Below the pieces are notes generated by a model. That model was given only the letters and a program-made list of their open reading frames with translations. It had not been told where the DNA came from and made no database searches. Positions 3-45,573 of a stretch of DNA of 46,289 bases are shown in pieces (the first letter of the stretch is position 1; each line of letters begins with the position of its first letter). The stretch covers positions 21,882-68,170 of the forward strand of contig PYJE01000068.1 in NCBI GenBank assembly GCA_003635305.1, written 5' to 3'. The DNA is from Candidatus Poribacteria bacterium. GTDB taxonomy: Bacteria > Poribacteria > WGA-4E > WGA-3G. A program made the translations under genes and the position numbers.

Positions 3-539
3 GTGCAACTTAAGTTAGGTCCCTCCTACGGAATCTACCGATTCAAAGCCTTCCCAGCTCCCTATCACGACTTCACCATCACCGTCAAGAACATTGGCAG
101 TGAACAAGCGGATTTCGGCATCACCCTCGGCAAGCGGTTTCCCGAAGTCGTTGATGGAGAGCGGGTGCCCTTTTTCTACGACTTTTTTCCCCATCGCATC
201 GCCGCGCGGCGTTACGGCGAAGGATGGAACGACACATTGCCGCCTGGGTTTCGTGAACCTCGGCACCCAAAAACCGTATGGAAGACTCGGGAACTCCAGG
301 GAATGGCGGTGCATTTCAATCAGGGACATTTTCAACTGTTCGCAGAAGGTGAATTACGCGCCGATTTCCACGACCCGGGCTTTGCCCCCATTGAAATTAT
401 CGGATTTGTGATTGTGGGAACCGAAAATGTTGTCGGCACCGCGTGGGCAGATGCATTCACCCTTTCCGGCCCCGCGCTTGAAGTTTCGCCTAAAGCAAAA
501 TTGGCGACAACCTGGGGGAAACTCAAAAAAGGAAAATGA
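3..539 (+). CDS. Secreted TTWG-tail family protein, 5'-partial
   Basis: Open from the left edge of the window, so the N-terminus and any signal peptide are missing; the GTG at position 3 is probably an internal codon. It aligns throughout with the two following genes: FPAPYHDFTI versus LPRPYHQFIV, FFPHRIAARR versus FFPHQIAATR, GHFQLFAEG versus GHFQLFADG, and a shared WADAFTLSGPALEVSP segment. The pattern of beta-rich strands with a terminal G..WADAFTISGP element resembles concanavalin A/LamG-like jelly-roll proteins, but I cannot name a family. It ends in AKLATTWGKLKKGK, the same tail found in the two paralogs and in the LamG protein at 42021-42776. Probably exported; function unknown. Confidence 0.7.
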   Translation: MQLKLGPSYGIYRFKAFPAPYHDFTITVKNIGSEQADFGITLGKRFPEVVDGERVPFFYDFFPHRIAARRYGEGWNDTLPPGFREPRHPKTVWKTRELQGMAVHFNQGHFQLFAEGELRADFHDPGFAPIEIIGFVIVGTENVVGTAWADAFTLSGPALEVSPKAKLATTWGKLKKGK

Positions 540-820
540 CAGCACTCGTCAATCTGCCTATGAAAACTACCCTCTCATCGGTAAGAGGGAGCTCCTCAGC
601 CGCCGCAATGGAGCGGATATGAAGAACATTGGCGGGACCTTGATGATGAAAACATCATCAGATACATATTATCAAGCGGGCAAACTAGGATCCGTACGGC
701 ATCGGCCAGACAATCCGGAAGCGGTACGATTGCATTCGCTTGAATTAAACCTCAACTCTGCGAGGGGAGGGGAATTCACTCCCCTCGCAGTCTCTCAGCA
801 CCGGTGGAGAATTGTGAAAA
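540..820. other. Intergenic region with a strong hairpin
   Basis: No convincing gene is present in these 281 bases. An open frame that runs through from 412 lacks an RBS and family resemblance. The only clear structure is the inverted repeat at 758-790 (12-bp stem, 9-nt loop), which lies just before the Shine-Dalgarno-like GGTGGAGA at 804-811 of the next gene. It belongs in style to the GC-rich GAGGGG palindromes seen elsewhere in the window. Confidence 0.5.
758..790. repeat. GC-rich inverted repeat (GCGAGGGG type)
   Basis: The arms CTGCGAGGGGAG (758-769) and CTCCCCTCGCAG (779-790) are perfectly complementary over 12 bp. There is no T-run, so this is not a classical terminator. Similar GGGCGAG palindromes lie at 23715-23742 and 39612-39640. 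Confidence 0.6.
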
Positions 821-1531
821 ATGGTTCATATAGCAACTATCTTTTTACTCCTTATATTGACTGCCGCTGTCAGTGTCTCTGCTGAAGCAGGTTGGTGGCG
901 GGATGACTTTCATACAAAAGCGTTAGAAAATTGGTGGATAGAACCCGAAAATTTCGTCCAAGAGTCCGTTTGGCGGGTGCAAGATGGATTTTTAACGGCG
1001 ACGATTCAGACAGAATGGGCCGTGAAATACGAACTCTTCGGATTCAGAGCCCTGCCACGTCCATATCATCAATTCATCGTTCAAGCAGAGAACCTCGGCG
1101 GTGAAGGCGCGAATATCGGCCTCGGACTCGCAAAAATCTTCCCTGACGCACCGGGAGCAAAGTGGTTTTTCTACCTCTTTTTCCCACATCAAATAGCCGC
1201 AACCCGTTTTGATGCAGACCATAAGAATGCCCCCTTTCTGGTTCGCGTTCCGCAGCATCCCGACACCTTCTGGGATACCTGGGAACTTGAGGAACTCGAA
1301 GTGCGTTTCACCGCAGGACACTTTCAACTGTTCGCCGATGGCACGCAGCGCGCAACATTCCAGGATGCCGATTTTTCGTTCATCGACATTATTGGCTTCG
1401 TGATAGAGGGAAACAACCACCGAAAAGGCAGGGTATGGGCAGATGCATTTACTATCTCCGGCCCCGCGCTTGAAGTTTCACCCACCGCCAAAATGACTAC
1501 CACCTGGGGATACCTCAAGAACCAACCCTAA
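821..1531 (+). CDS. Secreted TTWG-tail family protein (tandem copy 2)
   Basis: A 236-aa protein with a clear signal peptide: hydrophobic stretch HIATIFLLLILTAAVSVSA followed by EAGWWRDDF, so it is probably exported. The ATG at 821 has GGTGGAGA at 804-811. The mature part begins W.DDF...WW......VWRVQDGFLTA, typical of a LamG/concanavalin-like beta-sandwich, and ends with ADGTQRATFQD.DFSFIDIIGFV and WADAFTISGPAL. The last residues SPTAKMTTTWGYLKNQP carry the TTWG tail. It is about 95 percent identical at the DNA level to the next gene over 966-1440, which points to recent tandem duplication. No catalytic residues are recognisable. A sugar-binding or cell-surface role is only a guess. Confidence 0.8.
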   Translation: MVHIATIFLLLILTAAVSVSAEAGWWRDDFHTKALENWWIEPENFVQESVWRVQDGFLTATIQTEWAVKYELFGFRALPRPYHQFIVQAENLGGEGANIGLGLAKIFPDAPGAKWFFYLFFPHQIAATRFDADHKNAPFLVRVPQHPDTFWDTWELEELEVRFTAGHFQLFADGTQRATFQDADFSFIDIIGFVIEGNNHRKGRVWADAFTISGPALEVSPTAKMTTTWGYLKNQP

Positions 1532-1565
1532 TGACGAGGGTTTGCCATCGGAGGACCGGAAAAAC

Positions 1566-2270
1566 ATGAAAAGCCGCATACACATCTTGATAGACATTGT
1601 GGTAATTTCTGTGGGTATAGTTTTTTTTACAGCTGCTTTCGCAGGCACCTGGCGGGATGACTTTAACGCAGGAGATGCAGAAAGTTGGTGGATAGCGGCC
1701 GAAGAGTCCGTTTGGCGCGTGCAAGATGGATTTTTAACGGCGACGATTCAGACAGAATGGGCTGTGAAATATGAACTCTTCGGCTTCAGAGCCCTGCCAC
1801 GCCCATATCACCAATTCACCGTTCAAGCAGAGAACCTCGGCGGTGAAGGCGCGAATATCGGACTGGGACTCGCAAAAATCTTCCCTGACGCACCAGGGGC
1901 AAAGTGGTTTTTCTACCTCTTTTTCCCACATCAAATAGCCGCAACTCGTTTCAACGGCGAAAACGGGAATGCCCCCTTTCTGGTTCGCGTTCCACAGCAT
2001 CCAGACACCTTCTGGGATACCTGGGAACTTGAGGAACTCGAAGTGCATTTCACCCCAGGACACTTTCAACTGTTCGCCGATGGCACGCAGCGCGCAGCAT
2101 TCCAGGATGTCGATTTTTCGTTCATTGATATTATTGGCTTCGTGATAGAGGGAAACAACCACCGAAAAGGCAGGGTATGGGCAGATGCATTTACTATCTC
2201 CGGTCCCGCGCTTGATGTCTCGTCCAAAACGAAATTGGCAACGACATGGGGAAAACTCAAGCGTCAATAA
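1566..2270 (+). CDS. Secreted TTWG-tail family protein (tandem copy 3)
   Basis: A 234-aa paralog of the preceding gene, 34 bases downstream. I chose the ATG at 1566 because GGAGG lies at 1550-1554; the upstream TTG at 1542 falls before that site. The signal peptide is MKSRIHILIDIVVISVGIVFFTAAFAG, followed by TWRDDFNAGDAESWW. Compared with copy 2 the first 40 residues have diverged and a short segment (ENFVQE) is missing, while the core is nearly identical. It ends SSKTKLATTWGKLKRQ. The same-strand, close spacing suggests co-transcription of the three paralogs. Function is unknown; the likely fold is concanavalin/LamG-like. Confidence 0.8.
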   Translation: MKSRIHILIDIVVISVGIVFFTAAFAGTWRDDFNAGDAESWWIAAEESVWRVQDGFLTATIQTEWAVKYELFGFRALPRPYHQFTVQAENLGGEGANIGLGLAKIFPDAPGAKWFFYLFFPHQIAATRFNGENGNAPFLVRVPQHPDTFWDTWELEELEVHFTPGHFQLFADGTQRAAFQDVDFSFIDIIGFVIEGNNHRKGRVWADAFTISGPALDVSSKTKLATTWGKLKRQ

Positions 2271-5525: not shown

Positions 5526-7148
5526 ATGTTTAAATCCAGCACCACTCTACAAAAACGTGTAGGGATGCTTTTACTTTTCGTCGGGCTCATCGCTGTCGCG
5601 GGGCTCGTCATCAACCGGGGCTCAGTCATCTTCGCCCCCGGGAGCGCGGACACTCCCATCAACCGGGGAGGCGAGCACTTCCTGGTGCCAACGGTTCTCG
5701 CGCAAACCAACGAACCTTTTCAGCATTCCGAGGATTTCCAGGCTCTGGCGCGCGCGAATCGAGCGTTTATCGCGCTTGTTGAGCAGACGCGCCCATCCGT
5801 TGTCAAAATCCAGACTGCGAGAGCGATTAACTTCCGCGCAACAGATAGGAATGACAACTTTTTCCGGTTCTTTTTCGACAGCCCGCTGCCCCGAGGCGAT
5901 GAAGAACGCCGTCATCTTCAACGCGGGACCGGCTCCGGCGTGATTGTCAGTGATGACGGCTACATTCTCACGAATAATCACGTCATCGAAGGCGCAGACG
6001 AAATTACCGTTGTCCTCTCAAATGAAAGGCAATACAAGGCGGAACTCATCGGCCGCGATCCGGCCGGCAGCGGTGCCGGCGGCAGTGATCTTGCCGTTCT
6101 CAAAATCGAGGCGGAAGGGCTCCCCGCGATTCCCTTCGGCGATTCGGATGCCCTCGAAGTCGGCGAGTGGGTCATCGCGATTGGGACACCCCTAGAATTC
6201 TCGCAGACTGTCACACGCGGGATTGTCAGCGCGAAAGACAGACCTGGGTTTACCATGAGAGATTACGCGCAATTCATCCAAACTGATGCGCCGATTAATC
6301 GCGGCAACAGCGGCGGCGCGCTGATTAACATCCGAGGCGAACTCGTCGGCATTAATACCTTAATCGCTACCAGCGGTTTCACCACCGGAAACATCGGCAT
6401 CGGGTTCGCCATTCCAAGCAACATGGCACGCAGTATCATGCCGCAACTCATCGAAAACGGGAAGGTAGTGCGCGGATGGCTCGGCATCAGCATGAACCCA
6501 GTCGACTTCGATCTGGCCGAAAAACTCAAAATGGAGAGCCCTCACGGTGCCCTAGTCACGCAAGTCGGCAAAGGCAGCCCGGCGGAAAAAGGCGGCATCC
6601 AACGCGGCGATGTTATCATTGCATTTGACGGTGTGAAAATCCGGAACTTCGCGCACCTGAAGCACGTTGTCGGCGCGGCAGGTGTCGGAAAATCGGTTGA
6701 CGTGACAGTCCTCCGAGCCGGAAAAGAAAAACGGCTCACCATAAAATTAGGCAAGCGGACAGAAGCAGTCTTAGAGAGACTCGAGGACTCGCCGCACACC
6801 GTTCCCGACACGGCAGAACCTCAAACCGATTTTGCCGGGCTTCGCGTGCAGGCACTGACACCGGCCTTTATTGAACGCTACGGCTACGCACCAGACGAAA
6901 CCGGTGTCATCGTCACGCACGTCGAGAAGGGGAGCAATGCCGAGAAGAAGGGCATCACCCCCGGAACCCTCATCCAAGAGATGGAATACACACCTATTGA
7001 CAAACTGGAGACATATTCCGCTTTGGCCCAGCGGTTGGCAGCGAGTGAGGAAAAGCGCATCCTCCTCTACGTTAAATTCCCAAACGGAGAGGGAGCCGGT
7101 TACGTTACCTTAAACCTTGCCCTAGACGACGAAAAATCCGAACGGTAA
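5526..7148 (+). CDS. HtrA/DegQ-family serine endoprotease with two PDZ domains
   Basis: A 540-aa periplasmic/envelope protease. ATG 5526 is preceded by GGAGG at 5514-5518. The N-terminal hydrophobic segment (MLLLFVGLIAVAGLVI) is a signal anchor. The trypsin-like domain has the full triad: His152 (TNNHVIEG), Asp188 (SDLAVLKI) and Ser262 (RGNSGGAL). Two PDZ domains follow, the first from about 318 (RGWLGISM) and the second from about 430 (FAGLRVQAL). A small GSGAGG insertion lies just before the catalytic Asp, in GRDPAGSGAGGSDLAVL, where relatives have a two- or three-residue loop. It degrades or refolds misfolded exported proteins. A possible ECF promoter lies upstream. Confidence 0.95.
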   Translation: MFKSSTTLQKRVGMLLLFVGLIAVAGLVINRGSVIFAPGSADTPINRGGEHFLVPTVLAQTNEPFQHSEDFQALARANRAFIALVEQTRPSVVKIQTARAINFRATDRNDNFFRFFFDSPLPRGDEERRHLQRGTGSGVIVSDDGYILTNNHVIEGADEITVVLSNERQYKAELIGRDPAGSGAGGSDLAVLKIEAEGLPAIPFGDSDALEVGEWVIAIGTPLEFSQTVTRGIVSAKDRPGFTMRDYAQFIQTDAPINRGNSGGALINIRGELVGINTLIATSGFTTGNIGIGFAIPSNMARSIMPQLIENGKVVRGWLGISMNPVDFDLAEKLKMESPHGALVTQVGKGSPAEKGGIQRGDVIIAFDGVKIRNFAHLKHVVGAAGVGKSVDVTVLRAGKEKRLTIKLGKRTEAVLERLEDSPHTVPDTAEPQTDFAGLRVQALTPAFIERYGYAPDETGVIVTHVEKGSNAEKKGITPGTLIQEMEYTPIDKLETYSALAQRLAASEEKRILLYVKFPNGEGAGYVTLNLALDDEKSER

Positions 7149-12541: not shown

Positions 12542-12653
12542 TTTACGTTATGCGATGCTTGCATGAATTAAGACAGAAACCGACAAGTTTTTTGTCACCA
12601 GAAATTGTTGTTTGTTTTCGGCCCGTTTAGAAACACGCTAAAAAATCACTACG

Positions 12654-12703
12654 CCTCTCTGGCAAATGTCTGTGCCCGCACCTCGCGCGCGCCAGACAGG
12701 AGA
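12654..12703 (+). promoter_or_regulatory. rpoB leader hairpin overlapping the ribosome binding site
   Basis: CCTCTCTGGC (12654-12663) pairs with GCCAGACAGG (12691-12700) with one mismatch. The 3' arm includes the first bases of the Shine-Dalgarno AGGAGA (12698-12703). This could limit rpoB translation and allow feedback control. It is a visual call and no folding was run. Confidence 0.4.
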
Positions 12704-12712
12704 AGAACCTAC

Positions 12713-15700
12713 GTGAAGAAACGCATATCTTTCGCCAAAACAGACGTTCGCACACCCCTACCGAATTTGATTGAGACGCAGCAGCGCGCTTACGATGCCT
12801 TTTTGCAGCGCGACACGTTTCCGCACAAGGACAGCGGCCTGGCGGCAGTCTTCAACGAAGTCTTCCCTATCGCTGACTTCAACGAAGTCTCGCGCCTTGA
12901 ATTCGTCCATTACCAACTCGGCGAACCGAAATATACCCTTGACGAATGCCTCGCCCGCGGGGTTACCTACCAGGTCTCCCTCACCGCGCGGCTCCGCCTC
13001 GTCGTCTGTGAGAAAAACGCAGAAGACGAAGAACCGCACGTCGTTGATATCCGCGAGTCCGAAGTCTATTTCGGCGAAGTACCGCTGATGACTGAAAACG
13101 CCAGCTTCATCATCAACGGCAGCGAACGCGTCATCGTTAACCAATTGCACCGCTCACCCGGTGTCATCTTCCTCAATAAAACGCTCCCAGGCGGACATCG
13201 CTCCCCCACGGCGCAAATCATTCCTTACCGCGGGGCATGGATAGAATTCGAGGCGGACTCTAAAGATACCCTTTCCGTCCGGTTAAACAAACGTCGCAAG
13301 ATACCCGCCACCGTCCTGCTCCGCGCACTCGGGTGGGAGACGGATGCCGACATCTTGAAACTGTTCGCCGAACCAACGCGCGTGATGCTCTCCGGGTGGC
13401 GCGTCACTGAAGTAGCACTACCCGAATGTCCAACCCAAATCGATGCACTCTTAACCGCGGCGGAACATCGAAAGTTGGATGCCGACTACCCCGGCGCGGT
13501 AGCTGAGCTTTTCTATGAAGTCGTCTCCGCGTCCGATGATGCAACGTGCCCTGTCGCCGTCGGCGACAGGCTCACGCCTAACGAGTGGGCAAGGCACCGC
13601 AAAACGTGGAAAGATACCACCTTTGCACGCATCTGGCGTATCGCCAAGCATTACCGCCCCGACTATCCTTACCCCATCGGCGACATCGTGGCCGATGCAA
13701 CCTATCAGAAGGCACGGAAGGATTACCCGGGGATTGAGATAGAACCGTGCTATCGCGTCACAGCTGTCACTGACAAAGGGTGTCCGCTGGAAGAAGGACA
13801 GATGCTGACATCCAAGGAGCGCACCCGCGCACGCCGGAAGTGGAGAGGATTCACGACAGAACGACTCCTGCGCGTCACGAAACTCCTCAATACCGGATGC
13901 CCCTTGAACGTCGGCCAGCACCTCACGCCTACCGAATACACCGAAATGCTCGGAAAGCATCCTGACGCTTTCAAGGCAGAACGGATTGAATCGACAGACA
14001 TCGCCGAAACTATCGGCAGCGTCTGCGCTGAACCTATCGCCGACCCGAGGACTGACGAACTGCTAGTGACAGCGAATACGCTACTCACCGAAACAGAAGT
14101 CGAACGGCTGAGGGGTGCCGGTGTGGAGATGCTCACGGTGTTGACACCCGAATCCGCCAAAGCTCTCCGTTTTTTACGCAATACCCTCGAACGCGACAAA
14201 GAATCGGACTACGAGGCCCGCATCCAGGCCACCGGACGGCAAAGCGAAACACCCATTCAAGATGTCGCCCTGCTCAATATCCACTCTGTCCTCAGACCGG
14301 GGGAACCGGTGAGTATTGAGGCGGCGCACCGGCAACTCGCTTGGCACTTCTTCGACGCGCACCGCTATGACTTGGGGACTGTGGGACGCTACAAAGTGAA
14401 CTCAAAACTGCGACACCTCTCCGTATACGGTGAGCCGCCCGATGAGAAACACCGAACGTTGCGCCCGGAGGACATCGCGGCGACACTCCGGCACCTGCTT
14501 GATGTCCATAACGATCCTTCGTTGATAGACGACTTGGACCATCTCAGTAACCGTCGTGTACGCGGTATCGGCGAATTATTGGAGAACCAGTTCCGCATCG
14601 GCCTATTCCAGATCCGGCGCGCCACGCGCGAACGCATCTCCTCCGCCGATATGAGCAACTGCATGCCGCCAATGCTGATTAACCCGAAGCCGCTCATGGT
14701 TTCACTCCGCGAGTTCTTCGGTTCAAACCAACTCTCGCAGTTCATGCAGCAGGTAAATCCGCTCGATGAATTGACGCACAAGCGGCGTATCTCTGCCATC
14801 GGCCCCGGCGGACTCTCGCGCGATAGAGCCACCGCCGCCGTTCGCGATGTGCATCACACACACTACGGACGCGTCTGTCCCTTGGAGACACCGGAAGGCC
14901 CTTCTATTGGCCTCCTCGTATCGCTGGCGTGTTATGCGCGTATCAATCCTTACGGGTTCATTGAGACTCCTTATCACAGAGTGGTGCCCGGCAAGTCGAT
15001 GGCTGATATGGAAATTGAATACCTCACCGCCGATAAGGAAGACAAGGCCCGCATCGCCGCCAAAACGATACCGCGCGACGCGAAAAGGGGAGAAACGCCT
15101 GACACGGGCATCCAGCTGCCCGCCCGAAAAGGCGAAGATGTGCTTGCCTTACCCCTGTCCGAGGTAGACTACGTCGGCATCTCGCCATCACAGATTGTCG
15201 GTGTTTCCGCAGCACTCGTGCCTTTTTTAGAACATGAAGACGCGAACCGCGCCCTCATGGGCGCGAACCATCAACGACAAGCAGTGCCGCTCATCAAGCC
15301 CGAAGCACCACTCGTCGGCACCGGCATGGAAGCACGCGTCGCCCGGGACTCAGGGGCACTGTGCATCGCCAAACGCAGCGGCACCGTCGAAAGCGTCTCC
15401 GCCGCGGACATCATCATCCATACCGATGAACCCCTGCACGCAGACATCGGCGAACAACACAAGAGTGAGATGGGCTACGACCGGTATGAACTCCACACTT
15501 TCAAGCGGAGCAACAGCGGCACCTGCATCCATCAGCGGCCCATCGTCTCCGTCGGCGACACAGTGGAAGCAGGCGACATCATCGCCGACGGCACTTCTAC
15601 CGATGAAGGCGAACTCGCGCTCGGCAGGAACGTCCTGTGCGCCTATATGCCGTGGGGCGGACACAACTATGAGGACTCCATACTCATCAGCGAAAGCCTT

Positions 15701-17260
15701 GTCCAAGACGACACTTTCAGTTCCATTCATATCGAGGAATTCGAGGTGGAAGCCCGCGAAACGAAAATGGGACCGGAGGAAATTACGCGCGATATTCCCG
15801 ATGCAAGCCAACAGCGACTCTCACAACTGGACGAAGAAGGAATCATCCGTGTCGGAAGCCTTGTCAGCGCAGGCAGCATCCTCGTCGGTAAGATTTCACC
15901 CAAAGGCGAAAGTGAATACGGACCGGAGGAGAAACTCCTGCACGTTATCTTCGGTGAAAAGGTGCGCGAAGTCCGAGACGCATCCACATACGTCAAACCC
16001 GGCATTGAAGGCATCGTGATTGATGTCAAAGTCTTCTCACGAAAACAGGAACCAAGCCGGCACTCGCTGCAAAGCCTCGTTGACGCAGACCAGCTCCGTT
16101 ACGATGCCAAGAAGAAGGCCATCGAGGAGAAGTTCCACGAACACCTCCTGGCCATCCGCCGCCGCCGAGACGAAGAAATTCGGAACGCGCTCATCGGATG
16201 CGAATTGGCACAGCCACTCTTCAGAGGTATCGACACCGAAGCACCCCTTTCGCGCACAAGCAATGCCGAAGAACTGGACGAGTTGGACCATATCGGGGAA
16301 CTGCTGGCAGAAAGCGGCGACATCGTGACGCACGAACTCCTGCACACACCCGGCCTTGTGCTCAACGAGATTCACGTCACCGCCTCAAACGTCATGGCAT
16401 ACATCCAACGCGTTCAGGAAATCGCCGAGGAGCGCATCGCCGCCTATACCGAAGAAAAATCAAGCCAGCTCGAACAGATGGAACTCGGGGACGAACTCAA
16501 ATCCGGCGTGCTTAAACTGGTGAAAGTCTATATCGCGACGACGCGCCACATCTCCATCGGCGATAAAATGGCAGGCCGCTACGGCAACAAAGGGGTGGTA
16601 GCAGAAATTTTGCCCAAAGAGGATATGCCCTATCTCCCCGATGGAACACCGGTGGATATCGTGCTGAACCCCCTCGGCGTGCCATCACGGATGAACGTCG
16701 GGCAAATCCTTGAAATTCACCTCGGCTGGGCATGCCACGCACTGGGCATCCATGTTGAATCGCCTGTCTTTGACGGCGCAACCGAAAAGGAAATCTTCAC
16801 GATGCTCGACAAAACCGGCTTGCCGGAACGCAGCAAGAAAACCGGGAAAAGCATCCTTTACGACGGCAGAACCGGAGAAGCGTTCGGACAGGAAGTCACC
16901 GTGGGATATGTCTACTTCCTCAAACTGAACCATCTCGTCGCCGACAAGATGCACGCCCGTTCTACCGGGCCCTACTCGCTTGTTACGCAGCAGCCGTTGG
17001 GCGGCAAGGCGCAACATGGCGGACAGCGGCTCGGCGAAATGGAGGTGTGGGCATTAGAGGCATACGGTGCCGCGCATACCTTACAAGAAATGCTCACGCT
17101 CAAATCCGACGATTTCATGGGCAGAGCCAAAATTTATGAGTCGATGGTGAAAGGGCTCAACCCCGAATCCCCCGGCACACCGGAGTCGTTCAACGTTCTC
17201 GTGCGCGAATTGCAGGGCCTCGGCCTCAGCGTTTCCTTGAATCCGCCTGAAGAAAAATAG
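12713..17260 (+). CDS. rpoB: RNA polymerase beta subunit with lobe repeat insertion
   Basis: About 1515 aa, against 1342 in E. coli. The start is GTG 12713 (VKKRISFAKTDVRTPLPNLIETQ), with AGGAGA at 12698-12703; the 36 upstream in-frame codons have no similarity. Conserved blocks: INGSERVIVNQLHRSPGV, GSNQLSQFMQQVNPLDELTHKRR (rifampicin region), HYGRVCPLETPEGPSIGL, NYEDSILISE, GDKMAGRYGNKGVV, VPSRMNVGQILE and GGKAQHGGQRLGEMEVWALEAYGA. After RKIPATVLLRALGW, five tandem repeats of about 40 residues (230-424) are inserted in the lobe, near the place of E. coli SI1. Position 516 (E. coli numbering) of the rifampicin pocket is Gln instead of Asp. It forms the catalytic core with RpoC, 168 bases downstream. 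Confidence 0.97.
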   Translation: MKKRISFAKTDVRTPLPNLIETQQRAYDAFLQRDTFPHKDSGLAAVFNEVFPIADFNEVSRLEFVHYQLGEPKYTLDECLARGVTYQVSLTARLRLVVCEKNAEDEEPHVVDIRESEVYFGEVPLMTENASFIINGSERVIVNQLHRSPGVIFLNKTLPGGHRSPTAQIIPYRGAWIEFEADSKDTLSVRLNKRRKIPATVLLRALGWETDADILKLFAEPTRVMLSGWRVTEVALPECPTQIDALLTAAEHRKLDADYPGAVAELFYEVVSASDDATCPVAVGDRLTPNEWARHRKTWKDTTFARIWRIAKHYRPDYPYPIGDIVADATYQKARKDYPGIEIEPCYRVTAVTDKGCPLEEGQMLTSKERTRARRKWRGFTTERLLRVTKLLNTGCPLNVGQHLTPTEYTEMLGKHPDAFKAERIESTDIAETIGSVCAEPIADPRTDELLVTANTLLTETEVERLRGAGVEMLTVLTPESAKALRFLRNTLERDKESDYEARIQATGRQSETPIQDVALLNIHSVLRPGEPVSIEAAHRQLAWHFFDAHRYDLGTVGRYKVNSKLRHLSVYGEPPDEKHRTLRPEDIAATLRHLLDVHNDPSLIDDLDHLSNRRVRGIGELLENQFRIGLFQIRRATRERISSADMSNCMPPMLINPKPLMVSLREFFGSNQLSQFMQQVNPLDELTHKRRISAIGPGGLSRDRATAAVRDVHHTHYGRVCPLETPEGPSIGLLVSLACYARINPYGFIETPYHRVVPGKSMADMEIEYLTADKEDKARIAAKTIPRDAKRGETPDTGIQLPARKGEDVLALPLSEVDYVGISPSQIVGVSAALVPFLEHEDANRALMGANHQRQAVPLIKPEAPLVGTGMEARVARDSGALCIAKRSGTVESVSAADIIIHTDEPLHADIGEQHKSEMGYDRYELHTFKRSNSGTCIHQRPIVSVGDTVEAGDIIADGTSTDEGELALGRNVLCAYMPWGGHNYEDSILISESLVQDDTFSSIHIEEFEVEARETKMGPEEITRDIPDASQQRLSQLDEEGIIRVGSLVSAGSILVGKISPKGESEYGPEEKLLHVIFGEKVREVRDASTYVKPGIEGIVIDVKVFSRKQEPSRHSLQSLVDADQLRYDAKKKAIEEKFHEHLLAIRRRRDEEIRNALIGCELAQPLFRGIDTEAPLSRTSNAEELDELDHIGELLAESGDIVTHELLHTPGLVLNEIHVTASNVMAYIQRVQEIAEERIAAYTEEKSSQLEQMELGDELKSGVLKLVKVYIATTRHISIGDKMAGRYGNKGVVAEILPKEDMPYLPDGTPVDIVLNPLGVPSRMNVGQILEIHLGWACHALGIHVESPVFDGATEKEIFTMLDKTGLPERSKKTGKSILYDGRTGEAFGQEVTVGYVYFLKLNHLVADKMHARSTGPYSLVTQQPLGGKAQHGGQRLGEMEVWALEAYGAAHTLQEMLTLKSDDFMGRAKIYESMVKGLNPESPGTPESFNVLVRELQGLGLSVSLNPPEEK
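13400..13984 (+). repeat. RpoB lobe array: five ~40-residue repeats
   Basis: Residues 230-424 of RpoB divide into five units starting RVTEVALPECP, YEVVSASDDATCP, WRIAKHYRPDYPYPIG, YRVTAVTDKGCPLEEG and LRVTKLLNTGCPLNVG. Each continues with a [LM]T..E....R...[YW].GF-like second half. The same motif makes up the RpoC array at 20636-22744. The DNA copies are strongly diverged, so the array is old. Confidence 0.85.
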
Positions 17261-17428: not shown

Positions 17429-20400
17429 ATGGCAACCCCATTTGACAGTATCTCCCTCAAAATCGCTTCGCCGGACGAAATCAAAGCGTTGGCGAAGCGC
17501 ACCTGCTGCAAACGCAGAAGCAGCACCGTCAACCCCGGTGAACCCTTCTCCTGCCCAGAAATGCACACCTGCAACTGCGGCGAAGTGAAGAAGGCAGAGA
17601 CGATTAACTACCGCTCCTTCCGGCCCGAACTCGAAGGCCTCTTCTGTGAGGCAATTTTCGGGCCTTCCAAGGACTGGGAGTGTAACTGCGGAAAATATAA
17701 GCGGATTAAGCACAAAGGCGTTATCTGCGACCGGTGCGGCGTGGAAGTCACACGCCAGCACGTCCGCAGGGAACGGATGGGCTACATCCAACTCGCGTCC
17801 CCTGTCTCGCATATCTGGTTCTTCAAGGGGGCCCCATCGCGCATCGGAGCCTTCTGTGACTTCTCCGCACGGCAGATTGAGAACATTCTCTACTTTGACG
17901 CGTTCCTGGTGACTGAAGCGGACGAGGAACTTCAAGCACAAGGTATCCTCAAGCCCAACCAACTCATCAGCGAGGCAGAATTCGATACCTACAAAGTCCA
18001 ATACCGAGGCCGATTTAAGGCAGGTGCCGGCGGCGAAATACTTGCCAAACACCTCGCGAGCTTGGACCTCGAGGCAGAATGCGAGCAACTCGCTAAGGAA
18101 CTAGAGGAAACGCGCAGCCATCAGAAAAAGGTGAAACTCGCCAAGCAGCTCCGCATGAGGGAAGACTTTCTGAGGTCTGGACAACGTCCCGAATGGATGA
18201 TCATCGATGTGCTTCCCGTAATTCCCCCGGATTTGCGGCCCCTCGTCACCTTAGATGGCGGACGATTCGCCACCAGCGATCTGAACGATTTGTATCGGCG
18301 GCTCATCCATCGAAACAACCGCCTAGCCAAACTCATCCAGATGCGCTCGCCCGAAGTCATCTTGCGCAACGAAAAACGGATGCTGCAAGAAGCCGTTGAC
18401 GCATTCTTTGATAACGGCCGACACGGCAGAAGCGTAACAGGACCCGGGAATCGCGAACTCAAATCGCTCTCGCACGTCCTCAAAGGGAAAGTCGGACGCT
18501 TCCGACAGAATCTGCTCGGCAAACGGGTCGACTACTCCGGCCGCAGCGTCATCGTCGTCGGACCTGAACTAGCACTACACCAATGCGGCATCCCGAAACA
18601 GATGGCAGTGGAGTTGTTCAAGCCATTTATTATCGAACGGCTGCAAGCCTATGGCTACTCCAGCACCATCAAGCGCGCCAAGTCTTATGTCGAGAATATC
18701 GATTCTGGTAGCCCAGTGTGGGACGTGCTCGAAGAAGTCATCGAAGAACACCCAGTGTTGCTCAACCGGCCACCGACACTGCACCGGCTCGGCATTCAAG
18801 CATTCATGCCGGTCTTGGTGGAAGGAAAATCTATCCGAATCCCACCACTTGTCTGCAAAGCGTTCAACGCCGATTTTGATGGAGACCAGATGGCAGTGCA
18901 TGTGCCGTTAACCGCCGAAGCTCAGGCAGAAGCGAAACTGCTGATGCTCAGCAGCCATAACATCTTGAAGCCTTCGCACGGCGGACCGATTGCCGTCCCC
19001 GAACTGGATATGGTGCTCGGACCGAGTTACCTTACCAAGACGCTACCAGAACACGATGCGGACGCGCAACTGCTTCACAAGGTCTATACCCATCAAAACA
19101 GCGATACCTCTCTCTTTGATGAGATTCGCAGGAAACCGTGGTATCACCGCCGCTACGCGCATCCGGAAGAAGTCATCGCCGCGCACGGTGCAGGGCAACT
19201 CAAACTACACGACAGCGTCCAGTTGTTTTTCCCGGAAAATGGCAGGCAGCGCGAACCAATCCTCACCACCGTTGGCCGAGTGATTTTTAACGAGGTCCTC
19301 CCAGCCGAATTGGACTGGGAGGACGAGCACTCCGGACAGCAACTCCCGTTTTTCAACGGCGAAGCAGGGGGGAGGCAGCTCTCTGAAATCGTTGAAGACT
19401 GTTTCAACACTCCCGACCTCGGCACGCGGGCGACTGTAGAACTGCTGCAGCGACTTCAAAAACTCGCGTTCGAGTATGCAACGCAAAGCGGGATTTCGCC
19501 CAGCATTAATGATTACATCAAACCGCCGCAGCGGCAGGAACTGTTGGAAAAGACAGAGGAAACTATTGCCGAACTCATCGCCGCATCCGCCGCAGGTGCC
19601 GATACCGAAGAACTGGAGAACGAGCAAATCCACCTATGGTTCCAAGCACTGCGAGAGATGGAAGGCCTCATGTTTGCTAGACTCCCAGAATTGGAAACCC
19701 GCCTCGTTGACAGGGACGAACATGTCAAAGGGTTCAGTCCGGTGCATATCATGGCAGATAGCGGCGCACGGGCCCGGAAAAATCCGTTCATGCAAATCAG
19801 TGCCGTCCTCGGGCTGAAAGCGAAGCAGAGCGGTGAAATTCTGCTGCCGCCGATTACCACCTCCTATCGCGACGGATTGGACGTAATCGACTACTTCAAC
19901 TCCACCTACGGCTCCCGAAAAGGATTGGTGGATACGGCGATGAAGACAGCGGCATCGGGTTACTTGACGCGGAAACTCGTTGATGTCGCGCAAGACGTGC
20001 GCGTCACTGAAACGGATTGCGGCACCCTCCACGGCATCAAGAAATTTGCCACTGAAGGAGGAGAACTCGCTTTTAAAATCCGCGGACGCACCGCGACAGA
20101 GGATATCCTACATCCCAATACCGGTGAAGTCCTCGTCAAAGCCGATGAACTCATCTCAGCCGAAGCAGCGGCACTGCTTGAAAAGAGTAAGGTAAAAATT
20201 GTCACCGTCCGTTCGATGCTCACCTGCGAGACCGAGGAAGGTGTCTGCGCCAAATGCTACGGACACGATTTGACGACGAACAGGCTTGTCAGTGTCGGTG
20301 AAGCTGTTGGCATTATCGCCGCGCAATCCATCGGGGAACCCGGTACGCAACTCACGATGCGGACGTTCCACACCGGTGGTGCGGTTGAGGAAGTCTCCGA

Positions 20401-23400
20401 TGCACGCCAGCGTAAAATCCTAGCAAAAACGAGTGGCACTGTGAGGTTCCGCGATTTCCATCCCGGCATCACTGTCCGCCAAGAAGGCGCTCTCTGGATA
20501 TCCACAGGGCCCGGCACTTCTCCAATCGGCACAACTTCCTGGGCCGATAATCAGGCTGCTCTGAGGCGGGATCCAATAAACACGGAATCCGCTGAAAAGA
20601 AAGAATTCGGCAGCCGGGCCAATCTGGACGCTCCCGCCTACAAGGTCACGCGCGTCATTCACGCCGATTGCAAATTACAAAAAGGCGACTTGCTGAGCGA
20701 GAAACAGTTCTCTGAAAACGCGCAGCGTTACAAAGGCTTTGAGACAGTCCCATGGCAGCATCGCGTCACCACCGTTCACGATGATGCCTGTCCCTTGAAA
20801 GAGGGAGACCGGCTTTCTGCCGCGCAGTTGCATCAAGCCAGAAGGGCATACGGCTTCACGCGCTTTGCAACCGAGAAGCGCGAGATAGAACACGTCCGCC
20901 TTTCTACTGTGAACGTTCACCCCGGCGATTTGCTCACCGAAGAAGAAATCGCGCAGCGCAAAGCAGAGATTCGGAACAAATTTGATGGCGAATGGTGTTA
21001 CCGCATCCCAAAAACCGGCGAAATTTTCAAGTCGGCTCAGGAATTGTTGCCCTTGGGCATCCCTGTGGAGCCCCTTGAAGATATTGCGGATACAGCAATG
21101 CCAGGAGACACGTCTGCTGAAATGGCGGAAGCCCTGACTTCTGCGGATACATCGCTAGCGGGACGCACGTCTTTTGAACGGGTTTACCGCATCACCGCGC
21201 GGACACATCGGGATTTCCCTTATGCTGTCGGGGATATCGTGACCGCGGAGGAGATTGCGCCGTGGTTCACGCCTTTTGAGGAGGCAAAGAACCCCGTCTA
21301 TGTCATTGATGCAGACGCACCCTTGCATGCAGGCGAGACGTTGACACGCTACCAATACGAGGAAGTGTGTCGCGATTATCAGCCGTTTGAATCCGAAAGA
21401 GCGTCGGAAGTGTTGCACCACGTTACGGCAGTGCATCATCCCAGCTGCCCACTCAAGCCGGGTGAAGATTTAACCACAGCGGACAAGGATGCGATGCTCG
21501 CTCGCTGGATGGGTTTTGAAGCGCAGAAACTGCGGCACCGGGTTACGCACATCTATCATCCGGATTTTCCATACAAACCGGGCTATTTGATGAGCGATGC
21601 AGAGGCCAAAAAGTGGGCAAGCGAATTCCCCGGCATTGAAGTCCGGCATTCCGGCGTGTTTAGAACAACCCCTATCAATCGCATCACCGCCGTTCATTTC
21701 CCAGACAGCCCCTTGCAGAAGGGTGAACTGATGACGCGCAGCGAGGCATCGACATACCGCAAGACGTTCAAAGGGTTGGATGTCGAATCCTTCTACGAGG
21801 TTACTGAAGGACACTACTATCGGGCAACCGAAGGCAAGCCAGGCTTCACTGCAGAAGCGTTAACAGGGCCCGCTTTTACCGGGAAGGGTTCCAAGAACGT
21901 CTGGCGCGTTACCGAAGTGTTCCATCCCGCGTGCAAACTTGAGGTTGGACAGGATATTTCCAACGCCGCTTACAAGAAAGCGCAAAAGGACTTTCCAAGC
22001 GTCAAGCCGGGCGATATCCTAACGCAGGCGGAATTGGAAACGTGGCACCCCTTAGCCGCTGAGCAGGTCCAGCAACTCACCGAAGCGGAGTATGAGGCAC
22101 GACGCAAATGGGAGGCGAAAAACAAAACGCGGGGTAAAACGGATCTGAAAATCCAAGAGAAGGTCACACCCCAACACCGCGTGCTGGATGTCCATCACCC
22201 CCAACTCGCCATTGAAATCGGCGAAGAACTGGCGGATAAGGACTACAAGAAGCTCAAGCAAAAATACAGAGGGTTTGACGTTGAAACCCTCCATGGTGTC
22301 ATCCTAGATGAACCAGAGCTGGAGGAGCCCGACATCCCAGAAAGTGAGCTCGCTCAAGCGAAGCCGGACTCCACTGTGGTAGAGCACTATAAGCACGTCG
22401 TCAACAATCTAGAACTTCCTGTAGCGCAGTGGGAAAAGCCGCGCCTCGAGAAATTCTGGCGCGTTAAGGCTGTTCTTCCCAATCTAGAGTGTGAGTTTTC
22501 GGTAGGACAGAATCTTTCTGAAACCGAATATCAGGAGGCCTGCAAGAAGTATCAGGTCCACCTCGAAAAACCGAAGAGGCGTTTTCCCATTGATAAGGCA
22601 GAAATCTTTACAGCGGATGAATACCGCGCCCGCTGGAAGTATACCGTCACGGCTGTCCATCATCCGAATTGTCCGTATGAGGTAGGGACAGAATTATCCG
22701 AATCGGAATACCAAAGCGCGCTCAAGCATTACCCCGGCTTTGATAGGGACGATCCGGCACTGCAGATGAACATTGAGGTAGAGACAGCCGATGGCCGTCG
22801 GGTGCCGCATCAGATCAAGGCAGATTACTCCTTCTCCATCAAGGAGGGCGATACCGTCAAAGAGGAAGAAACCCTCGCTGAACTCCACGAGAAGACAGCG
22901 AACAGGGATATCGTTGCAGGTATCCCTCGCGTGACAGATCTTTTTGAGGCGCGCCAGCCTAAACGCGAAGACGCAGCGGAAATCGCGGAAATCGAAGGAT
23001 ACATTGAATCGGCAGGATCCAAATCAGGTGTTCCGACATACCGCATCGTTCACGAGGGGCACGAAAGCCGCCTCTACGCCATTCCGGACGAAAAACGGCG
23101 CGTCACCGAAGGCGACTTGGTAGAAGCAGGACAGCCGCTCACGGATGGATACCTCAACCCGCACGATATCCTCAAAATCGGGCGCGTCTTCATTGAAGAT
23201 GTCCCAATTGAAGGCGCAGAGGCCATTTGGACATACCTCATTGAGGAAATCCAAAAGGTTTACGGCGCACGCGCCATCAACGACAAGCACCTCGAAGCCA
23301 TCGTCCGGCAAATGATGAGGAAGGTGCGAGTGCTGAAACCCGGCGATACGCAGTTCCCCCATAACAGTGAGGTGACGCGACAGAAATTCGCTGAGGTGAA

Positions 23401-23698
23401 CGCGAAGGTTATTGACAGCGGCGGTGAACCTGCCACCGGCGAACCGATTCTGCAAGGCATCAGCCGTGCATCGCTCAGCACAGAAAGTTTCATCTCTGCC
23501 GCCTCGTTCCAGCAGACGACGAAGGTGCTGACAGATGCCGCTGTCAAAGGGCAGACAGACAAACTCTCCGGGCTGAAGGAAAACGTCATCCTCGGTCGCC
23601 TCATCCCTGCAGGAAGTGGACTTCCGGATTTACAGCAACTGGAAATCACGGAGGTTGACACTGACGAAGAGATGGAGGCACCGGAACCCGCCGAGTAA
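17429..23698 (+). CDS. rpoC: RNA polymerase beta' subunit with giant trigger-loop insertion
   Basis: 2089 aa, against 1407 in E. coli. ATG 17429 is preceded by AGGAG at 17414-17418. Landmarks: zinc ribbon Cys85, 87, 100, 103 (ECNCGKYKR...CDRCGVE); catalytic NADFDGD at 480-486; second zinc site CETEEGVCAKCYGHDL; bridge-helix/trigger-loop start GEPGTQLTMRTFHTGG (Met977); and trigger-loop end GIPRVTDLFEARQPK (from 1831). Between these two trigger-loop halves lie about 840 residues, in the position of the 188-residue E. coli SI3. About 700 of them are tandem repeats of the type found in RpoB. A further Cys-rich insertion occupies residues 23-50. Both catalytic centres look intact. Confidence 0.97.
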   Translation: MATPFDSISLKIASPDEIKALAKRTCCKRRSSTVNPGEPFSCPEMHTCNCGEVKKAETINYRSFRPELEGLFCEAIFGPSKDWECNCGKYKRIKHKGVICDRCGVEVTRQHVRRERMGYIQLASPVSHIWFFKGAPSRIGAFCDFSARQIENILYFDAFLVTEADEELQAQGILKPNQLISEAEFDTYKVQYRGRFKAGAGGEILAKHLASLDLEAECEQLAKELEETRSHQKKVKLAKQLRMREDFLRSGQRPEWMIIDVLPVIPPDLRPLVTLDGGRFATSDLNDLYRRLIHRNNRLAKLIQMRSPEVILRNEKRMLQEAVDAFFDNGRHGRSVTGPGNRELKSLSHVLKGKVGRFRQNLLGKRVDYSGRSVIVVGPELALHQCGIPKQMAVELFKPFIIERLQAYGYSSTIKRAKSYVENIDSGSPVWDVLEEVIEEHPVLLNRPPTLHRLGIQAFMPVLVEGKSIRIPPLVCKAFNADFDGDQMAVHVPLTAEAQAEAKLLMLSSHNILKPSHGGPIAVPELDMVLGPSYLTKTLPEHDADAQLLHKVYTHQNSDTSLFDEIRRKPWYHRRYAHPEEVIAAHGAGQLKLHDSVQLFFPENGRQREPILTTVGRVIFNEVLPAELDWEDEHSGQQLPFFNGEAGGRQLSEIVEDCFNTPDLGTRATVELLQRLQKLAFEYATQSGISPSINDYIKPPQRQELLEKTEETIAELIAASAAGADTEELENEQIHLWFQALREMEGLMFARLPELETRLVDRDEHVKGFSPVHIMADSGARARKNPFMQISAVLGLKAKQSGEILLPPITTSYRDGLDVIDYFNSTYGSRKGLVDTAMKTAASGYLTRKLVDVAQDVRVTETDCGTLHGIKKFATEGGELAFKIRGRTATEDILHPNTGEVLVKADELISAEAAALLEKSKVKIVTVRSMLTCETEEGVCAKCYGHDLTTNRLVSVGEAVGIIAAQSIGEPGTQLTMRTFHTGGAVEEVSDARQRKILAKTSGTVRFRDFHPGITVRQEGALWISTGPGTSPIGTTSWADNQAALRRDPINTESAEKKEFGSRANLDAPAYKVTRVIHADCKLQKGDLLSEKQFSENAQRYKGFETVPWQHRVTTVHDDACPLKEGDRLSAAQLHQARRAYGFTRFATEKREIEHVRLSTVNVHPGDLLTEEEIAQRKAEIRNKFDGEWCYRIPKTGEIFKSAQELLPLGIPVEPLEDIADTAMPGDTSAEMAEALTSADTSLAGRTSFERVYRITARTHRDFPYAVGDIVTAEEIAPWFTPFEEAKNPVYVIDADAPLHAGETLTRYQYEEVCRDYQPFESERASEVLHHVTAVHHPSCPLKPGEDLTTADKDAMLARWMGFEAQKLRHRVTHIYHPDFPYKPGYLMSDAEAKKWASEFPGIEVRHSGVFRTTPINRITAVHFPDSPLQKGELMTRSEASTYRKTFKGLDVESFYEVTEGHYYRATEGKPGFTAEALTGPAFTGKGSKNVWRVTEVFHPACKLEVGQDISNAAYKKAQKDFPSVKPGDILTQAELETWHPLAAEQVQQLTEAEYEARRKWEAKNKTRGKTDLKIQEKVTPQHRVLDVHHPQLAIEIGEELADKDYKKLKQKYRGFDVETLHGVILDEPELEEPDIPESELAQAKPDSTVVEHYKHVVNNLELPVAQWEKPRLEKFWRVKAVLPNLECEFSVGQNLSETEYQEACKKYQVHLEKPKRRFPIDKAEIFTADEYRARWKYTVTAVHHPNCPYEVGTELSESEYQSALKHYPGFDRDDPALQMNIEVETADGRRVPHQIKADYSFSIKEGDTVKEEETLAELHEKTANRDIVAGIPRVTDLFEARQPKREDAAEIAEIEGYIESAGSKSGVPTYRIVHEGHESRLYAIPDEKRRVTEGDLVEAGQPLTDGYLNPHDILKIGRVFIEDVPIEGAEAIWTYLIEEIQKVYGARAINDKHLEAIVRQMMRKVRVLKPGDTQFPHNSEVTRQKFAEVNAKVIDSGGEPATGEPILQGISRASLSTESFISAASFQQTTKVLTDAAVKGQTDKLSGLKENVILGRLIPAGSGLPDLQQLEITEVDTDEEMEAPEPAE
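17495..17578 (+). other. Cys-rich insertion near the RpoC N-terminus
   Basis: Residues 23-50 (KRTCCKRRSST...CPEMHTCNC) lie between DEIKALA and GEVKKAETINYR, which are adjacent in E. coli RpoC apart from a few residues. The segment holds Cys26, 27, 42, 48, 50 and His46, enough for an additional zinc site ahead of the canonical zinc ribbon (85-103). No metal binding is shown; this is inference. Confidence 0.6.
20636..22744 (+). repeat. RpoC trigger-loop array of ~40-residue repeats
   Basis: Residues 1070-1772. Clear units begin YKVTRVIHADCKLQKG, HRVTTVHDDACPLKEG, YRITARTHRDFPYAVG, YVIDADAPLHAG, HHVTAVHHPSCPLKPG, HRVTHIYHPDFPYKPG, NRITAVHFPDSPLQKG, WRVTEVFHPACKLEVG, HRVLDVHHPQLAIEIG, WRVKAVLPNLECEFSVG and YTVTAVHHPNCPYEVG. 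Most then have a hydrophobic-[ST]..E....RK.Y.GF second half. Degenerate units and acidic linkers lie between them. Repeat period is 38-45 residues where regular. Confidence 0.88.
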
Positions 23699-41917: not shown

Positions 41918-42022
41918 GAAGCAAGATTCACAAGATTCACAAGATTTCCAGGATAACCTCACTTGTTTCGACAACGGCCCCTATAATCCTGCGAATCTTG
42001 GAAGTCCCGCAAATCTTGCTTC
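41918..42022. repeat. Imperfect 37-bp inverted repeat (AAGATTCAC type)
   Basis: The left arm 41918-41954 contains the internal direct repeat CAAGATTCA/CAAGATTCA. The right arm 41986-42022 (ATCCTGCGAATCTTGG then AAGTCCCGCAAATCTTGC) is its imperfect complement. The arms flank 31 bases between the LamG gene and galU; the right arm touches the LamG stop. Possible miniature mobile element or terminator. Confidence 0.55.
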
Positions 42023-42776
42023 AGTCGCGCAACCCCTTGAGGTAGCCCCAGGTGGTTGAGAGTTTGCCGGCAGGTTCCACAGGCAAAGAATCGCTTTCGG
42101 ATTCAAAGTTCTGCTTCACCTCGGCTTCATCCAAGATCCTGTCGTAGATGCGAACATTGTCGATCATCCCGATAAGGTATCTGCCATCGTGTTCACTGCC
42201 GATGCGGCGTTCGTCCATGTTTTCAGGCGTGCCGCCCGCGGTGCCTTCGTCCATCAACTCGCCATCAACGTAGAGTTTGAGCTCATCCTCTTTGGTATCG
42301 CTGGTGTAAATGATGTGATACCAGGTCTCCGTCTCGGCGTTCATGCGAATCTTGACACCATCGTTTTTATGCACCTGAATCTGGTTGCCTTCAAACTTAA
42401 AATGGACTTTCCCAGCGGCCCACTGCCACGTGGAGACGATGCCTTGGATGCCGCCAAACTGGCCCTCCAGGGCCCAGCACTCAATAGACACCTTCTCAAA
42501 CGAACCGAGCGCGGGGATTTCAACGTAGTTCTCCGCATCGCCTTCAAACTCCATTGCATCCCCCATCGGGCCTTCGACGAACTTGAGTTTGCCTATCATT
42601 TCGGCATCGTTCTCGCCGAGGGCATCCTTAACGGTTTTGCCATCCAGATCAGCCTCATTGAGCGTATACATGGCGACGAGGCCGTCGGTGACGAAGTCTT
42701 GTGCATTCGCCGCGGTGACATAGCAAAGTGCCGTCAAGAGCAGGCAAAACGCACAGACTACGATATTTCTATTCAT
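42021..42776 (-). CDS. Secreted LamG-domain protein with TTWG tail
   Basis: A 251-aa protein. ATG 42776 (MNRNIVVCAF) has AAGGAG 7 bases upstream; the ATG at 42782 is too close to it. The signal peptide runs to TAANAQ. A single LamG/concanavalin domain follows: GLVAMYTLNEADLDGKTVKDALG, AMEFEGDAENYVEIP, SIECWALEG, WYHIIYTSD, LKLYVDGELMDEG and GMIDNVRIYDRILDEAEVKQNF. The last residues VEPAGKLSTTWGYLKGLRD carry the same tail as the three paralogs at 3-2270, though the domain differs. Probably binds glycans or sits at the surface. Distant from those genes, so the tail suggests a shared export or anchoring route. Confidence 0.88.
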   Translation of the reverse strand: MNRNIVVCAFCLLLTALCYVTAANAQDFVTDGLVAMYTLNEADLDGKTVKDALGENDAEMIGKLKFVEGPMGDAMEFEGDAENYVEIPALGSFEKVSIECWALEGQFGGIQGIVSTWQWAAGKVHFKFEGNQIQVHKNDGVKIRMNAETETWYHIIYTSDTKEDELKLYVDGELMDEGTAGGTPENMDERRIGSEHDGRYLIGMIDNVRIYDRILDEAEVKQNFESESDSLPVEPAGKLSTTWGYLKGLRD

Positions 42777-42898
42777 TTTCATTCTCCTTCTGATTGCCAG
42801 AAAGTTAAGTTTGAATATAGTTTAACACATTGAATTCAGGATGTCAAGGTAAAAATCAACAGCAGTGCGAGGAAGATGTTCCTTTATCCACAAAAGCG

Positions 42899-44090: not shown

Positions 44091-44429
44091 CTAGTCAAAG
44101 ACAACCGCGTGTCGTGTGATCGTCTTCTCGATTTGGATGAGGATACTGTGATCTGGATGCGACCAGTAGTCGATTACACTACCACTCGTCCAGTCATGAT
44201 ACCTCCCGTAGTGTGAACTACTGTGTGGGTGCACATCCTCGAGATCGATCGTTGGTGGGCGTACGTTGCCGGTACGCCACTCTAAGACGTAGGTTACTAT
44301 CTGTGTAGCCCCCTCTTCATCGTAGCTGCTCTGTGCAGTCTGGGTCGGCGAAATCGTGAGGACCGCCGAGAGAACTGCGAGAACTGTGAGAGCCACTAAG
44401 GTGGCCTTGTGGATCAGTCTTCTTAACAT
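44091..44429 (-). CDS. Small secreted protein, HYGRYHDW family (copy A)
   Basis: A 112-aa protein. It starts at ATG 44429 (MLRRLIHKATLVALTVLAVLS), with AAAGGAG 11 bases upstream, the same arrangement as in copy B. The signal peptide ends near SPTQTAQ. After SSYDEEG comes a divergent middle, then the block HYGRYHDWTSGSVIDYW plus SHPDH, identical in copy B (45232-45573). DNA identity over this block is almost complete (one difference in about 67 bases), while the rest has diverged. Aromatic and His/Asp-rich, so it may bind a ligand or metal. No known family recognised. Confidence 0.75.
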   Translation of the reverse strand: MLRRLIHKATLVALTVLAVLSAVLTISPTQTAQSSYDEEGATQIVTYVLEWRTGNVRPPTIDLEDVHPHSSSHYGRYHDWTSGSVIDYWSHPDHSILIQIEKTITRHAVVFD

Positions 44430-44474
44430 GAGTCTTAACTCTCCTTTAACAAGTGTCACTCGCGCGGGGTCTCG

Positions 44475-45231: not shown

Positions 45232-45573
45232 TTAAGCTACGAGGGTATAGTGAATATACTCAACTCGATACACAGTCCTCTCCGCGAAGTAGAGCGTCTC
45301 GTGATCTGGATGCGACCAGTAGTCGATTACACTACCACTCGTCCAGTCATGATACCTCCCATAGTGTGAGGTAATATGTCCGTGCAGATCCTCCGGATGG
45401 ATGGTTGTACGGGCATGAGACCCGGGATATGGACCGTCTATATAATAATAGTCCGTGACAACCAGGGTAAATCCACCCTCATCGTAGCTGCTCCGTGCAG
45501 TCTTGTTTGGCGTAATCGTGAAGACCGCGCAGATACAAGCGATGATCAGGAAGAGGATAAGTTTCTTGAACAT
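45232..45573 (-). CDS. Small secreted protein, HYGRYHDW family (copy B)
   Basis: A 113-aa paralog of copy A: signal MFKKLILFLIIACICAVFTI, SSYDEGG, then HITSHYGRYHDW and SGSVIDYWSHPDH, then a different tail (ETLYFAERTVYRVEYIHYTLVA). The 5' region (AAAGGAGAATTTACGCTC before ATG) also resembles copy A. It is first in a probable three-gene unit with the His-rich protein and copy A. Function unknown. Confidence 0.75.
   Translation of the reverse strand: MFKKLILFLIIACICAVFTITPNKTARSSYDEGGFTLVVTDYYYIDGPYPGSHARTTIHPEDLHGHITSHYGRYHDWTSGSVIDYWSHPDHETLYFAERTVYRVEYIHYTLVA

Follow-up and report, generated by a model that had tools for sequence, protein, structure and literature searches.

The locus and its tail-bearing genes

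The DNA analyzed here, referred to as the window, is a stretch of 46,289 nucleotides of the Candidatus Poribacteria assembly GCA_003635305.1 (contig PYJE01000068.1, positions 21,882 to 68,170). At one end of it, three tandem open reading frames on the forward strand, 3-539, 821-1531 and 1542-2270, end with KLATTWGKLKKGK, KMTTTWGYLKNQP and KLATTWGKLKRQ, and a LamG protein encoded on the reverse strand at 42021-42782 ends with VEPAGKLSTTWGYLKGLRD. The earlier note, which had described a shared C-terminal TTWG tail on three tandem paralogs and on a LamG protein 40 kb away, was correct about this observation, and the tail proved to be far more widespread than it had reported. The first paralog carries the tail LEVSPKAKLATTWGKLK at 477-527, but it lacks residues 1-61 of the family, including the signal peptide, and because these residues were not found upstream in any frame it looks like an N-terminally truncated copy. 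The second (821-1531, 236 aa) has a predicted signal peptide at about 821-886 and the tail LEVSPTAKMTTTWGYLK at 1469-1519, in which W229 and K233 are invariant in 60 relatives. The third encodes 234 aa from the ATG at 1566 (1566-2270), is 80% identical to the previous one, and has a predicted signal peptide at about 1566-1643 and the tail LDVSSKTKLATTWGKLK at 2211-2261. The LamG protein (253 aa) has a predicted signal peptide at about 42702-42782, a match to Laminin_G_3 at residues 84-223 (E 7.7e-18), and the tail LPVEPAGKLSTTWGYLK at 42036-42086 on the reverse strand, with W245 as the only invariant column in 90 relatives. The note had treated the tandem paralogs and the LamG protein as unrelated. 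They are unrelated in sequence, but the paralogs, of which the second has no Pfam match, are also predicted to fold as a ConA-like jelly roll, so this pair alone is weak proof of different domains, and that proof comes instead from other cargo described below.

Elsewhere in the window, two related small proteins with signal-like N-termini (44091-44459 and 45232-45573) share the motif SHYGRYHDWTSGSVIDYWSHPDH but lack the tail. The beta and beta-prime RNA polymerase subunits (12605-17260 and 17429-23698) seem, from their translations, to carry repeated inserts of a similar module (V.HP..P...G..LT..E.......GF).

Extent and conservation of the tail

A search of the source genome (4.35 Mb, 213 contigs, 87% complete) with the 19-aa tail gave 79 matches, most of them in ORFs of 210-310 aa. 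In the stretches read around these matches, 87 ORFs carry the tail, a lower bound for the genome, and 82 were long enough to study. The note had presented a shorter motif, but information rises sharply 12 residues before the W and the core runs to 4 residues after it, giving a 17-residue tail, L[AP]V[ED][PA]x[GD]KL[AT]TTWGx[LI]K, followed by 1-9 residues and the stop. The W is invariant and lies 5-13 residues from the end, at exactly 7 in 40 of 82. With a profile HMM of the tail, every real match lies within 10 residues of the C-terminus and a score gap separates matches from background. The same holds for 205 matches in loci of other genomes, none of which is internal. A chance origin is rejected by these data, by the distribution across the phylum, and by the absence of any match in 41 of 43 genomes of another order. 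A DNA repeat or recombination site is also rejected, since synonymous entropy in the tail equals that in the rest of the genes, so selection acts on the protein and not on the DNA.

Signal peptides and cargo

By a home-made rule, 81 of the 82 proteins have a signal peptide. With a stricter rule that considered the first ATG only, 64 of 77 tail genes pass, compared with 59 of 322 neighboring gene proxies and 14 of 126 of similar size. Pfam assigns LamG to 39 of the 82, and 3-keto-disaccharide hydrolase, PD40 propeller, CBM9, NPCBM, CBM4/9, LTD, F5/8C, PA14 and DUF4960 to smaller numbers, while many have no match. The families listed for these proteins (25 of 29 for Pfam) describe the bodies, and none is a Pfam or NCBIfam model of a C-terminal tail or sorting signal. 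Among 198 tail proteins of other genomes compared without their last 30 residues, 112 are LamG-like, 7 resemble the window paralogs and 72 fall into 18 other clusters, a few of these from a Pseudomonadota metagenome-assembled genome. CBM9, F5/8C, PD40, HmuY, CBM4/9 and other families were found among them by Pfam, and over 62 such proteins the only invariant columns are V, W and K of the tail.

The best single test is a natural one. In four genomes, WD40 proteins are fused to two copies of a domain related to the window paralogs; the single-domain relatives end in the tail, whereas in the fusions the inner copy lacks it and the outer one ends with KAAVLWGELKKQ or similar. On these data the reading of the tail as part of the LamG fold is rejected. 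Relatives of the window paralog in 59 of 85 genomes mostly align up to the tail. Two outcomes had been named in advance as capable of overturning the note's reading, absence of the motif from other exported proteins and its placement inside a domain, and neither was observed, as at least 80 proteins with predicted signal peptides carry it in this genome and only the last copy of a duplicated domain bears it. It could also be hypothesized that the tail is merely the end of one LamG or ConA-like family that spread by duplication, as suggested by the many LamG paralogs and tandem arrays and by the LamG-like majority in relatives. However, unrelated folds carry the tail, the internal copies lack it, synonymous sites are randomized, and a second phylum has it on other folds, so this explanation is largely refuted and remains only a remote possibility.

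Distribution

All 85 genomes of the phylum that were searched have the tail, with 28 to at least 105 matches each. A degenerate DNA pattern with a stop codon at the commonest distance gave at least 116 stretches in GTDB contigs, and 114 of these 116 are named Poribacteria. Of the two others, one, on a short contig named Deltaproteobacteria, has the tail in a shifted frame directly after a gene that reads, from its translation, as esterase-like. The other led to a Pseudomonadota metagenome-assembled genome (G085) and, within its order, to a 3.1-Mb genome with a 2.84-Mb contig (G111), whereas the other 41 of 43 genomes of that order have no match at E 0.001. Misbinning is an unlikely source of these hits, because G111, a relative with so long a contig, has them too and on other folds. 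In the 1.6 Mb of G111 that were read, about half of the genome, eight tail proteins were found, all with terminal tails, on two kinds of body not seen among the Poribacteria cargo: a Pfam-less paralog family, and three proteins with ankyrin repeats, an HExxH zincin-like motif and a lipobox-like signal. Each of these three zincin-ankyrin proteins lies directly next to a large ORF of about 580-680 aa with a type IV prepilin-like N-terminus (FSLVELMVA...), forming a duplicated two-gene cassette (contig C1, 12631-15714, 480543-483703 and 797320-800195). In addition, a viral contig (IMGVR_UViG_3300031801_000694) ends at its very edge, at positions 6454-6558 of the locus examined, in what reads as the end of a LamG protein plus the tail (GLKVEPKLKLTTTWGEVKR), which could be an assembly chimera or phage-borne cargo.

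Predicted structure

AlphaFold models of the second paralog and of the LamG protein, built from alignments of relatives, give jelly rolls (mean pLDDT 82 and 87), and a fold search places the window paralog among ConA-like lectins, calreticulins and GH16-type enzymes. In the models the tail lies outside the folded domain, after a poorly ordered stretch, and is drawn as a helix with block pLDDT of about 49-74. However, a hydrophobic-moment test gave no significant amphipathicity, so an amphipathic helix is not claimed and only a terminal element outside the domain is a safe description. A short, helix-less and poorly ordered C-terminal extension on exported proteins would also fit a propeptide trimmed by a soluble carboxyl-terminal protease for maturation or quality control, as CtpA trims the D1 protein. 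This seems very unlikely, since the whole 17-residue core with invariant W and K is conserved, more than such trimming is known to need.

Comparison with known C-terminal signals and candidate machinery

Sortase (PF04203) was found in none of the 85 genomes and is rejected as the reader. Exosortase (PF09721) was found in 3 of 85 (G003, G015 and G017, with strong scores that could reflect rare acquisition or contamination) and is rejected for at least 82. Clustering of gene neighbors returned only generic families such as TPR proteins and oxidoreductases, with no recurrent partner gene. Tripartite sorting signals are described as a motif, a helix and a basic cluster (PMC3237569). Like PEP-CTERM/exosortase (PMC1569441), LPXTG/sortase and GlyGly-CTERM/rhombosortase (PMC3237569) signals, the tail is a short motif at the extreme C-terminus, shared by otherwise unrelated proteins with predicted signal peptides in many copies per genome, and its end is basic, with a positive net charge from K(-5) to the end in all 82 proteins (mean +3.1). 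However, the motif is different, and in none of the 82 does a 19-residue window of the last 50 residues reach a Kyte-Doolittle value of 1.6, so there is no membrane helix. With two of three features present, the tail is not a member of this group, though the suffix logic is the same. TTWG also bears an apparent resemblance to the IPTL-CTERM motif. The MYXO-CTERM/myxosortase tag (PMC11980579) is likewise universal in one phylum, present on dozens of proteins per genome and thought of as a surface-sorting label, but it has an invariant Cys and a tripartite build with a helix, whereas the Poribacteria tail has neither a conserved Cys nor a helix and has also reached another phylum.

The T9SS C-terminal domain (CTD; TIGR04183, Por_Secre_tail) is also a C-terminal signal on Sec-exported proteins, and both kinds of tail coexist in every Poribacteria genome. 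The CTD, however, is a domain of about 72 model positions on mostly larger proteins; no TIGR04183 match was obtained among the 82 tail proteins at E 0.01, and none of 12 CTD proteins read carries the tail. All 85 genomes have CTD proteins (9-59 or more each) and 8-24 PorV-family matches, and 84 of 85 have an ORF that matches SprA, the outer-membrane translocon of T9SS, mostly below the curated cut-off. This ORF, of about 2150-2300 aa, matches in two blocks (E down to 1e-65) at loci such as L207, 2619-9375 (contig C86 of genome G000), L208, 6202-13026, and L209, 5611-12096, while a PDB sequence search with a Poribacteria SprA-like ORF found nothing. Together these data suggest a divergent T9SS-like system, whereas the 2014 single-cell study found CTDs but no Por structural genes. 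A T9SS link is thus thinkable, in which the tail would be a short second type of cargo signal read by PorV-family or SprA-like proteins. It is considered doubtful, because tail proteins do not match the CTD model, the CTD proteins read lack the tail, and the half of G111 that was read has eight tail proteins but no hit to local PorV, SprA or CTD models.

A proposed portable C-terminal signal

Altogether, the tail is best explained, with moderate confidence, as a portable C-terminal targeting signal for exported proteins. In this view, the protein would leave the cytoplasm by an N-terminal Sec signal peptide, which has strong sequence support; the tail, joined to the folded body by a poorly ordered linker, would be recognized by one dedicated factor in the envelope, as inferred from one shared motif fixed at the terminus of many folds; and that factor would send or fix the protein to the outside of the cell, where LamG, CBM, discoidin-type and propeller domains could bind glycans or host matrix, as inferred from the cargo. 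Because it has the motif and basic end of sortase- or exosortase-type signals but no membrane helix, the tail is unlikely to be held in the inner membrane for an intramembrane enzyme. The analysis establishes a phylum-wide, strictly terminal and fold-independent tail under protein-level selection on exported proteins, with a second home in a Pseudomonadota order, whereas its reading by one factor after Sec export, the resulting surface display or release, and the localization of the proteins are inferred. The note's interpretation of a sorting, anchoring or processing signal, similar in logic to PEP-CTERM or Por tails but without a membrane helix, is accordingly only partly supported: the pattern is that of PEP-CTERM or LPXTG signals minus the helix, but no reader or processing enzyme was found in the searches described above. 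Moreover, the lipobox-like signal of three cargo proteins in G111 means that anchoring cannot be the sole role there, and the dominance of small beta-rich domains among the cargo could reflect another shared need such as assembly.

The strongest rival, though still unlikely, is a docking peptide, a short ligand that would plug many binding modules into a common surface scaffold, as dockerin does with cohesin, and so would assemble proteins outside the cell rather than sort them. The mostly small glycan- or matrix-binding-type cargo, the short fixed motif after a flexible hinge and the lack of a detected cleavage enzyme are consistent with this idea. However, no scaffold was identified, the cargo also includes propellers, a HmuY-like protein and, in another phylum, the zincin-ankyrin putative lipoproteins, and a position within 5-13 residues of the end would be unusually strict for a docking module. 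It is possible, though this remains tentative, that Poribacteria run a previously unknown post-Sec sorting route, with a helix-less 17-residue C-terminal code read by a dedicated factor that is neither sortase, exosortase nor T9SS, with about a hundred clients per genome, and that the code has also passed to a Pseudomonadota lineage. No description of this tail was found in the open-licence literature searched.

Poribacteria are best known as abundant sponge symbionts, rich in eukaryote-like and lectin-like proteins, and a secretion pathway for their CTD-bearing proteins was said to remain to be revealed (Kamke et al. 2014, PMC3909097). A single, easily searched tail that marks about a hundred exported proteins per genome, a set largely separate from the CTD proteins, looks like an address label for the cell surface. 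It gives a list of candidate surface or secreted symbiosis proteins, a peptide bait for the putative reader, and a second lineage that makes phylogenetic profiling possible.
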